Source: Olsenella uli
Lineage (GTDB): Bacteria; Actinomycetota; Coriobacteriia; Coriobacteriales; Atopobiaceae
Assembly (NCBI RefSeq): GCF_016899935.1
Contig: NZ_JACJJK010000003.1
Location: forward strand, 1-64,000
Reading direction: 5' to 3'
Length of the DNA stretch: 64,000 nt
Position numbers and translations under genes: made by a program. The stretch's first letter is position 1. Every line of letters begins with the position of its first letter. Under the pieces are notes generated by a model. That model searched no databases, was not told the DNA's origin, and worked only from the letters and a program-made list of their open reading frames with translations. This document shows positions 16,967 to 29,520 of the stretch, one piece after another.

Positions 16967-17031
16967 TCGATTGGCTCCTCAGCCGAGGGGACTGTGGCAG
17001 AATGGGCGTCATGGGTCGAAAGGGGACTGGG

Positions 17032-17718
17032 ATGGCGCGGGTGCTGGTCGTGGAGGATGATGCGGCGATCAATGACGTGGTGGCCACGCGCCTCGCGCGC
17101 GACGGGCACACGGTCGCGCAGGCGTTCTCCGGCTCCGAGGCGCGGCTGCTCCTGGGCGAGAAGAACGTCGCCTTTGACGTGGTCGTTTGCGACCTCATGC
17201 TGCCGGGCGTCACGGGCGAGGAGCTCGTCGGGCTCATTCGCGGGCGCGACGTCGCGGTCCCGATCGTCGTGATTTCCGCCCGCACGACGCCGGCCGACAA
17301 GATCGGCCTTCTGGCCCTGGGCGCCGACGACTACCTGGCCAAGCCCTTCGACCTAGACGAGCTGGCGGCGCGCGTGGAGGTGCAGCTGCGCCATCGTGGA
17401 GCGGCCGGCTCGGCGGCGGGCGCCGTGCTGCACTACCGGCGCTGGGCGTTGGACACCGAGGCGCGCACGCTCACCGTGGATGCCGACACGGACGTTCCCC
17501 TCACCAGGATCGAGTTCAACATCCTCGAGGCGCTGGTCCGCCGGCCGAACAAGGTGTTCTCCAAGTCCGAGCTCTTTGAGGCGGCGTGGGGAGAGCCGTT
17601 CGCCGGGGACGAGTCGACGGTGGCCGTCCACGTCTCCAACATCCGCGCCAAGCTGCGCGCCACCGGCACCGACGACTACGTCAAGACCGTCTGGGGCATG
17701 GGCTTCAAGCTCGCGTGA
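17032..17718 (+). CDS. OmpR/PhoB-family response regulator
   Basis: A 228-residue regulator. The receiver domain (1-120) has the acidic pair ED (8-9), phospho-acceptor D54 in VVCDLMLPG and K104 in YLAKPFDL. A winged-helix domain follows (130-228) with TRIEFNILEALVRRPNKVFS and VHVSNIRAKL. ATG 17032 follows AAAGGGG; earlier ATGs at 17002 and 17011 are in frame but poorly spaced. It most likely pairs with the histidine kinase at 20636, from which it is separated by a repeat array and three ABC transporter genes. The stop codon lies in a palindrome. Confidence 0.9.
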   Translation: MARVLVVEDDAAINDVVATRLARDGHTVAQAFSGSEARLLLGEKNVAFDVVVCDLMLPGVTGEELVGLIRGRDVAVPIVVISARTTPADKIGLLALGADDYLAKPFDLDELAARVEVQLRHRGAAGSAAGAVLHYRRWALDTEARTLTVDADTDVPLTRIEFNILEALVRRPNKVFSKSELFEAAWGEPFAGDESTVAVHVSNIRAKLRATGTDDYVKTVWGMGFKLA

Positions 17719-17747
17719 GACAAATGAACCCGTCCCCTTTGTCTCAC
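17715..17747. repeat. REP-like palindrome at the response regulator stop codon
   Basis: GTGAGACAAA (17715-17724) and TTTGTCTCAC (17738-17747) enclose TGAACCCGTCCCC. The TGA stop of the regulator is bases 17716-17718, inside the left arm. The sequence differs from the other REP types but occupies the same position. Confidence 0.75.
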
Positions 17748-17750
17748 TGA

Positions 17751-17981
17751 CTGCAAAACGGCCTCTCGTGTGATGATTTTCCCGTTCTGACTGCAAAACG
17801 GCCGCTCGTGTGATGAGATTTTTGCCCCTGTGACGTGTCGAGAGGCTTTCTCAGTAGGAAAAGGCCAGTTGGTAAAATCAACAATGAAATCGAATTCCCG
17901 AAAAAAGGGAGAATCGGCATCACACGAGAGGCCGTTTTGCAGCGTGCGGCATCGATTTATCACACGAGAGGCCGTTTTGCA
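17751..17981. repeat. Four-copy array of a 26 bp unit, two direct then two inverted
   Basis: The unit CTGCAAAACGGCCTCTCGTG continues with TGATGA. Copies lie at 17751-17776 and 17791-17816 on the plus strand (40 bp period; the second has one change, GCC to CGC context) and, inverted, at about 17918-17942 and 17959-17981 (41 bp period). The 100 bp between the pairs are AT-rich for this genome and include GAATTCCCG-AAAAAA-GGGAGAATC-like hairpin arms. The array fills the 376 bp gap between the regulator and the ABC operon, where I see no credible gene. Confidence 0.8.
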
Positions 17982-18022
17982 TGACACGGACACGTGCGAC
18001 CCGCAGTGGACCCTCAAGCTTT

Positions 18023-18050
18023 CTTTAGATTTGGCTCACGGTTTCTAAAG
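18023..18050. promoter_or_regulatory. Inverted repeat upstream of the ABC transporter operon
   Basis: CTTTAGA (18023-18029) and TCTAAAG (18044-18050) are separated by 14 bp and stand 45 bp ahead of the ATPase start; CTCTAGAAAGG follows. The position suits an operator for the nearby response regulator, but this is inference. Confidence 0.45.
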
Positions 18051-18094
18051 GCCCGCCTGCCATCATGGGGGTCAGCCTCTAGAAAGGAGCTCGC

Positions 18095-19024
18095 GTGAAC
18101 GTCATTGAGACGCACGGCCTCACCAAGCGCTACCGCCGCAAGCTGGCCGTGGACAACCTGGACATGACCGTCGCTGCCGGCGACATCTACGGCTTTGTGG
18201 GCAAGAACGGCTCGGGCAAGTCGACCACGATGAAGATGGTCTGCGGGCTCGCGCGCCCCACGGCGGGCGAGGTTGTTCTTTTCGGCGACCCTGAGAACGG
18301 AGGCGCCACGCCGCAGGGCTTCTCCCGCGTCGGCGCCCTCATCGAGAGCCCGGGCGTGCTCGCCAGCCTCACGGCGCGGGACAACCTCGTCGCCAAGGCG
18401 CTCGCGCTCGGCATGACGCATGCCGGCCAGGTGGCGGACGACCTGCTCGAGCTCGTGGGGCTGGACCCGCGCGACCATCGCCGCGTGAAGGCCTACTCGC
18501 TCGGCATGAAGCAGCGCCTGGGCCTCGCGCTCGCGCTCGTGGGTGCGCCCGACCTGCTGCTTCTGGACGAGCCCTTCAACGGCCTGGACCCGGAGGCCAC
18601 GCGCGCCATGCGCCTCGCGCTCGTGCGCCTCAACCACGAGCACGGCGTCACGATCATGATCTCCAGCCACGTGCTGGACCAGCTCGACCGCGTGGCCACG
18701 CGCTTTGGCATCATCGCAAACGGTCGTCTCACGGCCGAGTTCACCGACGCGGAGCTTCACGAGCGCTGCGGCAGCTCGGTGCGCCTGCGTCTCGCGCAGC
18801 CGGAGCGCGGGCTGGCCCTCCTCGAGCAGGCGCTCCCGCAGGCGATCTTCCGCGCGGAGCCCGACGGCGCTCTCGTGGTCACGGGCGTCGCGCTCGAGGA
18901 GGTCAGCGCCGTATGCTTCTCCGCCGGCGTGGAGGTCCGCGAGCTCGCCCAGCAGGAGCGCGACATCGAGGAGTACTTCGTCGAGCTCATGGAGGCGGGC
19001 GAGAAGGACGGTGGCGCCCGATGA
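18095..19024 (+). CDS. ABC transporter ATPase, BcrA/LanF type
   Basis: A 309-residue ATPase: Walker A GKNGSGKSTT near 40, Q-loop region ALIESPG near 84, signature YSLGMKQRLGLALAL near 136, Walker B LLLLDEPFNGLDPEA near 154 and switch His in SSHVLDQL near 190. This subfamily (BcrA, NisF) energises ABC-2 exporters that remove bacitracin or lantibiotics from the membrane. GTG 18095 follows AAAGGAG. The gene is coupled by ATGA to the first permease. The extreme C-terminus encodes GEKDGG, a copy of the dispersed GAGAAGGAC word. Confidence 0.9.
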   Translation: MNVIETHGLTKRYRRKLAVDNLDMTVAAGDIYGFVGKNGSGKSTTMKMVCGLARPTAGEVVLFGDPENGGATPQGFSRVGALIESPGVLASLTARDNLVAKALALGMTHAGQVADDLLELVGLDPRDHRRVKAYSLGMKQRLGLALALVGAPDLLLLDEPFNGLDPEATRAMRLALVRLNHEHGVTIMISSHVLDQLDRVATRFGIIANGRLTAEFTDAELHERCGSSVRLRLAQPERGLALLEQALPQAIFRAEPDGALVVTGVALEEVSAVCFSAGVEVRELAQQERDIEEYFVELMEAGEKDGGAR

Positions 19025-20639: not shown

Positions 20640-21685
20640 TGCGTGACGCGCTTCTCGAGCAGCTCTACCGCTGGCTGGAGCCGTTCGTGGACTGGCTGCT
20701 CGCAAGCTCTAGGATGGAATGGTGGGCCGGCGTCATGGAGGGGCTTCACATGGCTGATGCGATCATGCTCGCGGTGATGCTGCTGGTCGGCGTCGGGCTC
20801 GGCGCCGTCCTCGTCGTCGCCTGCTACGTGAGCGAGCTCGGCCGCCAGGCGCGCTTCCTGGGCGTCCGCGACCGCGCGAGCAACGCGCGGCTCACGAGCG
20901 GCAGCCGCCTGCCGGGCGTCGTGGGCCTCGTGGACGCCGTGAACGCCGAGCTCGATGCGGCGGACGCGGAGCGCGTGGAGGCCCTGCGCGCCGCCGACGA
21001 GTTCTCGCGCGGGCTCTCGGCGCTCTCCCACGACGTCCGGACGCCGCTCACCGGCGCGCGCGGCTACCTGCAGCTGGCGCGCGAGGAGACGGACCCGACG
21101 CGCAGGGACGCCCAGCTCGCGGCGGCCGACGCACGCCTCGCGGCCATGACGGGCCTGCTCGACGAGCTCTTCTCCTACGCGCGCGCCGCCGATCCGGACA
21201 CCCCGCTCGAGCTGGCGCCCGTGGCGCTGCGCCCCTTGCTGGAGCAGGTTCTTCTCGGCCATTACCCGGAGTTCGAGGCGCGCGGCTGGGAGCCGGAGCT
21301 GACCTGCGGGGACGTCACGGTGACGGCGGACGCCGAGGCCCTCGCGCGCATCGCGGAGAACCTCGTGGCTAACGCGCTGCGCCACGGATGCGGCCCGCTC
21401 TCGGTGACGGTCCGTCCGTCAGCCGAGAAGAACCGCGTGGCCGTGGAGTTCTCCAACCCCGTGGCGGACCCCGCCGCGATCGAGGCCGACCGCCTCTTCG
21501 AGCGCTTCTACCAGGCCGACGCCTCGCGCGCGACCGACGGCTCCGGCCTCGGGCTCGCCGTCGCCGCCGAGCTCGCCGCCGCCCAGGGCATGACGCTCTC
21601 CGCCCGCCTGGACGGCCCCGCCCTCACCATCACCCTTGACTGTGAATTGGGGACAGTCCCCAATTCACACAAATCGTTTATGTAA
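20636..21685 (+). CDS. Membrane sensor histidine kinase with repeat-derived C-terminus
   Basis: A 349-residue kinase. One membrane helix (42-63) is followed by a linker, a HisKA domain with H132 in [13 protein letters not shown], and a HATPase domain with N box [11 protein letters not shown] near 242 and GSGLGLAVA near 303. It resembles kinases that control LanFEG/BcrAB transporters and very probably phosphorylates the regulator at 17032. The last 15 or so residues ([14 protein letters not shown]) are encoded by a REP-like palindrome, so the original C-terminus ended near LTITLD. Confidence 0.88.
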
Positions 21686-21708
21686 ATTGGGGACTGTCCC
21701 CAATTCAC
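21642..21708. repeat. Inverted pair of GGGGACAGTCCCC REP-like palindromes
   Basis: The first copy (21642-21668) has core TTGGGGACAGTCCCCAA; the second (21682-21708) has the opposite centre TTGGGGACTGTCCCCAA, so the two units face each other like a BIME. The first lies in the kinase frame. Further copies are at 28675-28705 and, as a shortened form, 59573-59601. Confidence 0.88.
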
Positions 21709-26988: not shown

Positions 26989-29520
26989 ATGGGTAACAAC
27001 ATGGCGAGAAGGACCACGTTTCTGCAGGAGCACGGCGTTCCGGAGCTGCTGGCGCCCGCCGGCGGCCCCGCCCCGTTCAACGCCGCGCTCGCGGCCGGGG
27101 CCGACGCCATCTACTGCGGCCTGGGCAACGACTTCAACGCCCGGCGCGGCGCGGACAACTTCGACGACGCGTCCTTCTCGGCTGCGTGCCGCCGCGCGCA
27201 CCTGGCCGGCGCGCGGGTTTACGTGACGGTCAACGTGGCCGTCTCCACCGAGGAGCTGCCGCGCGTGCTGGGGCTGGTGCGCCGCGCGTGGAACCTGGGC
27301 GCGGACGCCTTCATCATCCAGGACTGGGGCCTCATGGCCGAGGTCCGCCGCCGGTGGCCGCAGGTGGAGACGCACGTCTCCACGCAGGCCAACGTTCACG
27401 ACGCGCGCGGCGTGGCCTGGTGCAGGGACGTCTGGGGGGTCGACCGCGTGACGCTCTCGCGCGAGCTCTCCCTCGCGGAGATCTCCCGCATCGCCGAGGA
27501 GGGCGTTGAGCTGGAGTGCTTTGGCCACGGGGCGCTCTGCTTCTGCTACTCGGGCGTATGCCTGATGAGCTCGCTGCGCGGCGGGCGCTCGGCCAACCGC
27601 GGCCTCTGCGCGCAGCCGTGCCGCCTGCCGTACGACCTCGTTGACGAGGCCGGCGCCGTGATGGAGATTCCCGGCGTCGCCACGCAGGGCGTCCCCGAGA
27701 CGAGCCGCGGCGTGGGCGGGACGCGCCTGCTCTGCCCCAAGGACTACCGCACGGTGGACCGCGTGCGCGAGCTGCGCGACGCGGGCGTGGGCTCGCTCAA
27801 GATCGAGGGGCGCATGAAGGCGCCCGACTATGTGTTCTCCGTGGTGGCGGCCTACCGCGACGCGCTGGACGAGCTCGCGCGGGGCGAGAAGGACGACGCG
27901 GGCTCGCGCGCCGCTCGCGACCGGCGCCTGCGCCGCGCCTTCAACCGGGACTTCACCGAGAGCTACCTCTGGGGCGGCTCGGACAACGACATGATGAGCT
28001 ACGAGCGCTCCAACAACCGCGGCGAGCTCGTGGGGCGCGTCGTGGGGTCGCGTGCGCTCGAGGACGCGCTCGTGCGGCGTGGCGGCGGCAACGGCGGGCG
28101 CGAGCGGATGCGCCGCGTCACGCGCGCGGACGTGGAGGTCCTTCTCGACCAGCCGGTGGGCGCCGGCGACCTGCTGGAGATCCGCCCGGTCTCCGACCCG
28201 TCGCAGTTCCTGACCGCGCACGCCGAGAAGGACGCCGAGGCGGGGGAGACCATCACCTGCCGCGCCGCGCGCCCGATGGAGGTCGGCTCGCTCGTGCGCG
28301 TGATCCGCTCGCAGGCGGCGCTCGACGAGGCGGCGCGTGTGGCCGAGAAGGACGCGCCGCGCCGCCGCCCGGTGCGCGTGCGCGTGACCGCGCGGCTGGG
28401 GGAGCCGTTTGCGGTGGAGCTCGCCACGCTCGACGGCGTCGCGTCGGCGCGCGCGGAGGGCTTCGTCGTGGAGGCCGCGCGCACGCGCCCGGTCACCGAG
28501 GAGGACCTCGTGGAGCACGTAGGTCGCATGGGCCAGAGCGCCTTTGAGCCCGTGAGCTGGGACGTCGCGCTCGACGCCGGCTGCGGGATGTCCTTCTCGG
28601 CCGTGCACAAGGTCCGCGCCGAGGCGTGCCGCCGCCTGGAGGAGGCCATCCTGGCCCCCTACGCCGCCCGCTCTCTGTCAATTGGGGACAGTCCCCAATT
28701 GACAGACGTGTCCGGTCGCGGCGAGGAGCCGTGCGTGTGCGCGCTGGTGACGACGCCGGAGGCCGCCGAGGCGGCGCTTGCGGCCGGGGCGACGCGCGTC
28801 TACGCCCCCGCAGACGACCTCGCGCGCGGTGCGTGGCCGACCGGCGCGATCCCCTGGCTGGACGAGGTCTGCCGCGAGGCCGACCACACGCGCCTGGACC
28901 CCTGGGTGTGCGCTGGTGAGCCCGTGGCCGTGGGCAACGTCTCTGAGCTCGCCCTCGCCGCCGAGCGCGGCGCGGCCCCCGAGGTCCGCTCCTGCATCCC
29001 GGTCCACAACGCGCCCGCCCTCGCGGCGCTGGCCGAGGCGGGCGCGGCCGGCGTCTGGCTCTCCCCGGAGCTCACGCTCGAGCAGGTCTGTGACCTCGCC
29101 CGCACCGCGCCGATACCGGTGGGCCTCTCCGTTTTTGGCCGCGAGCGCGTGATGACGAGCGAGCACTGCGTCCTGCAGGCGCTCGGTCGCTGCCGGCACG
29201 ACTGCGCTCGCTGCCCGGAGCGCGCCCGCGCCCTCTCCCTGCGCGACATCGACGGCAACCTCCTGCCCGTGCGCACGGACCTGAACGGCCGCTCGCGCAT
29301 CTGGTCCGCGCGCCCGCTCGACGCCACGCCGCAGGTCCCGGAGCTCGTCGCGGCCGGCGTCTCGCGCCTGCTCGTGGACGCGCAGCTCATGAGCGCCGAG
29401 GAGACCCGCGCCGCCGTCGCGCGCACCGTGGCGGCGCTCGCGGCCGCCCGCGCCGGCCGACGCCCCGAGCCGCGCCTCAAGGGCGCCACGTCGGGTCATC
29501 TCTTCTCGCCCATTGGGTAA
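26989..29520 (+). CDS. Peptidase U32 family protein with an in-frame palindrome
   Basis: An 843-residue U32 protein: ELLAPAGGPAPFNAALAAGADAIYCG near 19-44 is the N-terminal barrel, and the Cys cluster CFGHGALCFCYSGVCLMSS near 176-194 with CAQPCRLPY is the iron-sulfur site seen in RlhA/TrhP-type RNA hydroxylation proteins. A second U32-like part follows residue 570. Substrate is unknown; RNA modification is at least as likely as collagenase activity. Residues 563-573 (LSIGDSPQLTD) are encoded by a 31 bp REP-like palindrome without loss of frame. ATG 27001 is an alternative start. Confidence 0.85.
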   Translation: MGNNMARRTTFLQEHGVPELLAPAGGPAPFNAALAAGADAIYCGLGNDFNARRGADNFDDASFSAACRRAHLAGARVYVTVNVAVSTEELPRVLGLVRRAWNLGADAFIIQDWGLMAEVRRRWPQVETHVSTQANVHDARGVAWCRDVWGVDRVTLSRELSLAEISRIAEEGVELECFGHGALCFCYSGVCLMSSLRGGRSANRGLCAQPCRLPYDLVDEAGAVMEIPGVATQGVPETSRGVGGTRLLCPKDYRTVDRVRELRDAGVGSLKIEGRMKAPDYVFSVVAAYRDALDELARGEKDDAGSRAARDRRLRRAFNRDFTESYLWGGSDNDMMSYERSNNRGELVGRVVGSRALEDALVRRGGGNGGRERMRRVTRADVEVLLDQPVGAGDLLEIRPVSDPSQFLTAHAEKDAEAGETITCRAARPMEVGSLVRVIRSQAALDEAARVAEKDAPRRRPVRVRVTARLGEPFAVELATLDGVASARAEGFVVEAARTRPVTEEDLVEHVGRMGQSAFEPVSWDVALDAGCGMSFSAVHKVRAEACRRLEEAILAPYAARSLSIGDSPQLTDVSGRGEEPCVCALVTTPEAAEAALAAGATRVYAPADDLARGAWPTGAIPWLDEVCREADHTRLDPWVCAGEPVAVGNVSELALAAERGAAPEVRSCIPVHNAPALAALAEAGAAGVWLSPELTLEQVCDLARTAPIPVGLSVFGRERVMTSEHCVLQALGRCRHDCARCPERARALSLRDIDGNLLPVRTDLNGRSRIWSARPLDATPQVPELVAAGVSRLLVDAQLMSAEETRAAVARTVAALAAARAGRRPEPRLKGATSGHLFSPIG
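28675..28705. repeat. REP-like palindrome inside the U32 reading frame
   Basis: CTGTCAATTGGGGAC and GTCCCCAATTGACAG surround a single centre base, giving a perfect 31 bp palindrome within the coding sequence. It has the same core as 21642-21668. The frame stays open across it. Confidence 0.9.

Follow-up and report, generated by a model that had tools for sequence, protein, structure and literature searches.

Four-unit inverted arrays in Olsenella uli and its relatives, a dispersed set of candidate protein-assembly sites

The intergenic stretch of about 230 bp between a response regulator gene and an ABC ATPase gene of Olsenella uli contains a block of four asymmetric units of about 22 bp, two direct and two inverted (++/--). 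The block was analysed within a window comprising the first 64,000 nucleotides of contig NZ_JACJJK010000003.1, to which all coordinates refer. The adjoining response regulator is of the OmpR type (Pfam Response_reg and Trans_reg_C). The outer left unit u1 (17752-17776, plus strand, TGCAAAACGGCCTCTCGTGTGATGA) and the inner left unit u2 (17792-17816, plus strand) are separated by a left linker (17777-17791) that is unconserved between loci. The inner right unit u3 (17918-17941) and outer right unit u4 (17958-17981), both on the minus strand and, like u2, assigned by unit match, are separated by a right linker (17942-17957) defined by the conservation comparison. The start-to-start distance is 40 bp in the left and right pairs alike; the earlier note had given a period of 40-41 bp, of which the regularity holds and the value is narrowed to 40 bp in both pairs. 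The four units themselves, as described in the same note, are real: a 20-mer search allowing up to three mismatches gave four matches in the 64-kb window, compared with 0.01 expected, and four or more were found in 0 of 100 shuffles. The single within-unit difference is in one copy, with G for T at 17804. The unit consensus from many copies is GCAAAACGnnCnYTCGTGTGAT(GA), with free letters in mid-unit.

The 22-nt inner units enclose a core of 104 bp with 55% A+T. A T-tract/GCCCC zone lies 3' of the inner unit (17817-17830), and is visible in the consensus logo (core orientation partly set by A+T content) as weak conservation on both sides of the core. The asymmetric motif CAACTGG (17865-17871, minus strand) is central, with CTGG at 17865-17868 on the dyad axis at 17866.5, and is accompanied on its 5' side by an AT-rich stretch (17873-17892, minus strand) of the kind seen in the comparison of A+T across cores described below. 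A palindrome, TGAGACAAATGAACCCGTCCCCTTTGTCTCA, is located at 17716-17746, between the response regulator stop codon and the block, and has a near copy at the glnA-gpmA junction of genome G028 (L143).

In the window's own genome (G000, 2.1 Mb), the same 20-mer search gave 33 matches, compared with none for a reversed control. All 33, and 52 of the 54 matches to a looser pattern, fall into 14 blocks with the ++/-- layout and 40-bp period, including the window block; all are intergenic by rough gene calls. Under a stricter unit definition, L112, L130 and L119 have fewer than four units each. Among these blocks the constant unit positions are 97-99% identical, compared with 35% for the linkers, 31% for the flanks and 29% for the next core segment. 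Since the sequence outside the units is unrelated, the 14 blocks are, on this comparison, not recent copies of one another. Many copies of the whole block at unrelated loci, which the earlier note had associated with a mobile element, are thus seen for the architecture, at 14 loci, but not for a copied sequence.

Measured between 22-nt units, the inner spacing in G000 is 115 bp in three blocks, 124-126 bp in ten and 135 bp in one. By another count of the same distance, it is 116-118, 126-129, 136-138 or 158 in 63 of 64 blocks from several species, a list in which L223 is misregistered and L119 and L209 are off by one. The inner spacing thus changes in steps of about 10 bp, and in G000 a shift of roughly one turn of the helix separates the four remaining blocks from the main class. 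The sole exception seen to the 40-bp pair distance is the right pair of G144, at 41 bp. CTG[GC] is present at an offset of exactly 49 nt from an inner unit in 9 of the 14 cores of G000 (null mean 0.24) and in 14 of the 16 of G029 (null mean 0.23), the motif of the window block being one base off this position; by eye, most blocks whose arms are of another type also contain the central motif. With cores oriented by the motif alone, which left 31 of 40 usable, the sequence 5' of CTG[GC] has 71% A+T, compared with 44% on the other side, and the 5' value is higher in 27 of the 31. The helical-step spacing, together with unit conservation, supports the suggestion of a protein-binding array with looping geometry.

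The neighbours of the G000 blocks, named by reading their proteins, appear functionally mixed and include glnA, yebC, ligA, yaaA, icd, engB and uvrA, among others; the same reading gave no candidate for a protein that binds the units. By a rough frame test, 10 of the 14 junctions are tandem, four are divergent and none is convergent; counting a short gene makes L103 tandem. Over five species, 4 of 63 loci are convergent, namely L124 and its orthologue L267, L289, and L270, the last a poor block. The core motif at tandem junctions points with the genes in five cases and against them in three, with no call in three, the counts being the same in G000 and G029. The proposal that the units serve as operators of the adjacent response regulator for the ABC/kinase operon fits poorly with these results, as the 13 other G000 blocks adjoin apparently unrelated genes. 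Moreover, the regulator helix STVAVHVSNIR is identical in five species with two unit types, the residue that follows being A in the TGAT-type genomes G000, G025 and G029, and G in G004 and G016. Because its recognition helix changes so little between species whose units differ, this regulator is an unlikely candidate for the reader of all blocks.

A broader form of the regulatory hypothesis is that a single global regulator with many targets uses the blocks as operators, each controlling a neighbouring promoter by looping. The looping geometry, the conserved junctions described below and the absence of G000 blocks between convergent genes are in its favour, and the fact that few junctions are convergent (4 of 63 overall) leaves room for a promoter-linked role. 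However, the neighbours have no evident common pathway, the core motif takes either direction relative to the genes (five along them, three opposed), and convergent junctions do occur in relatives (L124/L267 and L289). In addition, no sigma-70-like promoter was found in 17600-18200, which counts weakly against this explanation. Overall, we regard such a regulon as improbable, though deserving of some weight.

The window's unit type is numerous in three of the 31 genus genomes (G000, G025 and G029), and a fourth contains one unit. A looser two-unit pattern matched 16 of 140 family genomes, compared with none for its reversed control; 28 of the 30 loci returned fit four units within 13 mismatches, giving 21 blocks after removal of repeats. 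A half-block profile, based on sequence only, found half-blocks in at least 25 of 395 genomes of the order, including at least 18 in the genus; about 11 candidates were scored per genome, making these counts lower bounds. Both the rarity of the window's unit type and the 13 of 31 genus genomes lacking a half-block among the roughly 11 candidates scored in each count against a chromosomal-site reading. None of the single weak matches in G227, G348, G353 and G120 was confirmed as a block. The one strong match outside the family, in G144, consists of four units on a 5-kb contig and might be contamination. No blocks were found in plasmids or phages or, with exact patterns, in viral contigs.

Units are alike within a genome and different between genomes, with 3' ends that include TGATGA, ATGAA, CRACAT, CAGCAT, TAGCGC, CCACA, ATGGA and AGGTG, among others; some genomes, such as G004, contain two unit types. 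In a two-gene tree of 29 genomes, which is poorly resolved, the three species of TGAT type do not form a single group, arguing against a simple single origin of that unit type. For the locus comparisons that follow, a four-unit finder reported 14 of 15 loci in G004, missing L262 and registering L270 poorly, and 8 of 17 in G014, with L287 misregistered, while the remaining G004 and G014 loci rest on half-block matches.

Many blocks occupy conserved positions. Eleven of the 14 G000 blocks have a counterpart between the corresponding genes of G025 or G029, and a junction match on both sides to G000, G025 or G029 was found for 11 of the 15 loci in G004 and for 11 of the 17 in G014, these loci having been chosen by half-block matches. 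At the window junction (response regulator and ABC ATPase), blocks are also present in G025, G029 and G004. Junctions are also often empty, a unit pair being present at gpmA in 4 of 30 genomes and at yebC in 5 of 30. Among orthologous blocks of G000, G025 and G029 (54 half-block pairs at 11 junctions, the blocks not being independent), identity is 94-97% for the unit constants and 97-99.5% for the suffix, compared with 48-58% for the free unit letters, 58% for the linker and 51% for the outer flank. Conserved units amid diverged surroundings are characteristic of binding sites for one shared, putative protein.

Beneath the units, some cores are also inherited. Of 60 orthologous core pairs (omitting L287 and the G014 loci lacking a found block), 30 align in the same direction, 28 of them with z >3, one is inverted, and 29 have no clear alignment. 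Homologous cores with different unit types are seen in L098 and L115 compared with L280 (z 5.4 and 5.0), and in L092 compared with L261 (z 3.7). The pairs L121-L271 (z 2.8) and L116-L263 (z 2.5) are suggestive, and could arise by chance in a series of 60 tests. On these alignments, an inherited block clearly carries different units in different species at one junction, and an inherited core probably lies under different unit types at a second. The difference in unit ends over an inherited core would imply a co-evolving trans-acting protein. In most orthologous cores of differing unit type, divergence hides any homology, and independent arrival at the junction is possible there.

These comparisons bear on the possibility of a mobile element, also raised in the earlier note. 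The dispersed architecture agrees with it; by contrast, the copies have only a motif in common, often occupy conserved junctions and lack target-site duplications of 3 bp or more. A recent mobile element is disfavoured by the diverged linkers and flanks and by the lack of excess target-site duplications of 3-9 bp. An older alternative is that the arms are the ends of ancient, now immobile miniature transposons, with a transposase that bound two sites per end, and with conservation that is historical or reflects domestication. This would account for the dispersal, for presence and absence at orthologous junctions, and for the additional conservation at the outer boundary of the outer units (T 62% and C 29% at the position immediately beyond the G). 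A match of 2 bp at the very ends is also found in 11 of 73 distinct blocks, compared with 5.0 expected (sd 1.9). Against this, flank repeats of 3-9 bp show no excess, with one 5-bp match among the 73 blocks; linkers and flanks have diverged around conserved units; and the unit type differs over a homologous core, clearly at one junction. Plasmids, phages and viral contigs (the last by exact patterns) gave no examples, and no transposase of the rve type, the one family searched, was detected in G000 at E 1e-4, making a present partner of this type unlikely there. Transposon ends are thus an unlikely explanation.

The possibility that the blocks are invertible DNA segments, flipped through their inverted arms by a site-specific recombinase, is bounded by the same core alignments. 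One homologous core is inverted with respect to its genes (L091 compared with L126, flip z 6.2, same-direction z -1.0), and the motif score alone gives an opposite core direction in G004 at L265, L267 and L275, one of which is the window junction, with unclear core homology at these loci. However, only this one pair is flipped, compared with 30 of 60 in the same direction and 29 without clear alignment. No serine recombinase was found in G000, G003 or G028, which makes a serine invertase an unlikely candidate in these genomes. G003, G004 and G009 contain two tyrosine recombinases each (E 1e-8), presumably XerC and XerD, and G000 contains a third; with just two in three block-bearing genomes, an attachment site for a dedicated tyrosine recombinase is likewise disfavoured. 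Inversion is therefore considered very unlikely. Taken by class, tyrosine integrases beyond the two Xer-like genes, serine recombinases, rve transposases and RAYTs each went undetected in at least one block-bearing genome.

The inverted arms could also form RNA or single-strand hairpins, acting as a terminator, a processing site or a RAYT-mobilised BIME/REP-like element. The predicted RNA fold of the window block is indeed very stable (z -10.6), and Y1-type (RAYT-like) genes are common, occurring in 28 of 31 genus genomes. However, the units are not palindromes, and over 40 blocks the free letters of opposite arms agree barely more often than by chance, at 0.463 compared with 0.426 for the outer arms (115 of 1000 shuffles) and 0.494 compared with 0.433 for the inner arms (37 of 1000 shuffles). 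There is no Rfam match in 17000-19000. None of eight RAYT loci from six genomes contains a unit at 0-1 mismatch, the three loci analysed for repeats (L335, L336 and L338) are flanked by unrelated palindromes, and no Y1 gene was found in the block-bearing G014. A REPIN/RAYT system is disfavoured by the asymmetry of the units, the RAYT loci without units and the lack of a detected Y1 gene in G014, and hairpin explanations as a whole appear scarcely credible.

The explanation that we prefer, with a confidence evenly poised between acceptance and doubt, is that the window block is one of a set of dispersed chromosomal protein-assembly sites, probably architectural, many of which are at conserved positions. 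A putative, fast-evolving DNA-binding protein, one for each unit type, would occupy every unit, and the two units of a pair would lie on nearly the same helix face. The complex may bend or wrap the core of about 100 bp to allow the arms to meet, and a second, more conserved factor (or domain) may read the central CTG[GC]. Looping, bridging or marking of the chromosome is the most likely role, rather than control of the two flanking genes, because the neighbours appear functionally mixed and the core motif points both ways. GC-skew sampling of the one closed chromosome (G029) gave no clear ori/ter pattern, which counts against this reading. More tentatively, and with doubt prevailing, the blocks might constitute a chromosome-organising system of about 15 compound, helically phased four-unit synapses per genome around an oriented centre, in which the specificity of a dedicated putative protein evolves fast and its sites are rewritten in concert between species. 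If true, this would be a bacterial parallel to centromere-type co-evolution. If one protein reads all the sites, they would provide a natural protein-site co-evolution series at a dozen conserved loci, and the protein could prove to be a global regulator, or a factor that organises the chromosome, in a lineage that has been little studied. The helical-step spacing provides a testable prediction of a wrapped or looped complex.

Among known sets of chromosomal sites, those of matS/MatP and Noc are single short palindromes, present at tens of chromosomal positions and read by one protein. The blocks resemble them in being a set of tens of chromosomal sites, and differ in being compound four-unit sites with an asymmetric centre, a changing specificity and a binding protein that is putative. 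The nearest known design is the enterobacterial BIME-1, in which oppositely oriented REPs surround an IHF-binding sequence, and species-specific arms co-evolve with a protein (PMC2817692). As described in that source, BIME-1 is likewise extragenic and dispersed, with two inverted arms of species-specific sequence around a protein-read stretch, which is putative in our blocks. By contrast, each arm here consists of two non-palindromic units spaced by 40 bp, while a REP is an imperfect palindrome; and the G000 genome has 14 blocks, compared with more than 100 REPs, with no RAYT link found. The cores of G000 also lack an excess of IHF sites: WATCARNNNNTTR, the IHF consensus, was found with up to one mismatch in 1 of 14 cores, compared with 1.28 in shuffles, while 40 cores of three species gave 9, compared with 4.5 (sd 2.1). 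An IHF-like core is thus unsupported in G000 and weakly supported over the 40 cores.

Bacterial MITEs such as Correia, ERIC and Chunjie are similarly short, intergenic elements with inverted ends and tens of copies (PMC10969869). By contrast, our blocks share only a motif, with no recognisable homology beyond the ends, and they combine a lack of target-site duplications of 3 bp or more with many fixed junctions and with units conserved relative to their surroundings. The invertible promoters of Bacteroides fragilis, acted on by the invertase FinA, likewise comprise many loci at which a short segment lies between inverted repeats (PMC3090145). The blocks differ from these in their orientation, which is mostly the same between species where it could be judged, in their mixed neighbours, and in that no serine recombinase was found in the window's own genome. 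Among the matches listed from open-licence full texts, none dealt with such repeats in Olsenella or Coriobacteria.

Several other repeats were observed in the course of this analysis. At the yebC junction, G016 (L176:1204-1358) contains a different unit family in 2+2 inverted sets, and G024 (L184:1022-1409) contains a different unit family with two inverted and about six direct units, both with a 41-42-bp period; these families are possibly further versions of the same design. A shorter element near yebC (L182:1293-1412, also in L176 and L179) has single inverted arms, TTGTGCACGAGTTA, and its core in L182 contains CCAACTGGGAAAAC, which resembles the core motif of the four-unit blocks; a diverged version of it is present in G028 (L174:1265-1390). 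One block, seen in L205 and L206 (G009 and G010), has nearly perfect arms including the linkers, unlike the others inspected by eye, suggesting local conversion or a recent inverted duplication. Finally, near-perfect palindromes like GTNAATTGGGGACAGTCCCCAATTNAC occur in the window at 21642-21668, 21682-21708 and 28677-28703, the first two being 40 bp apart. Because this palindrome also borders a RAYT-like gene at another place in the window's own genome (L335), the three copies look like REP elements of that gene.
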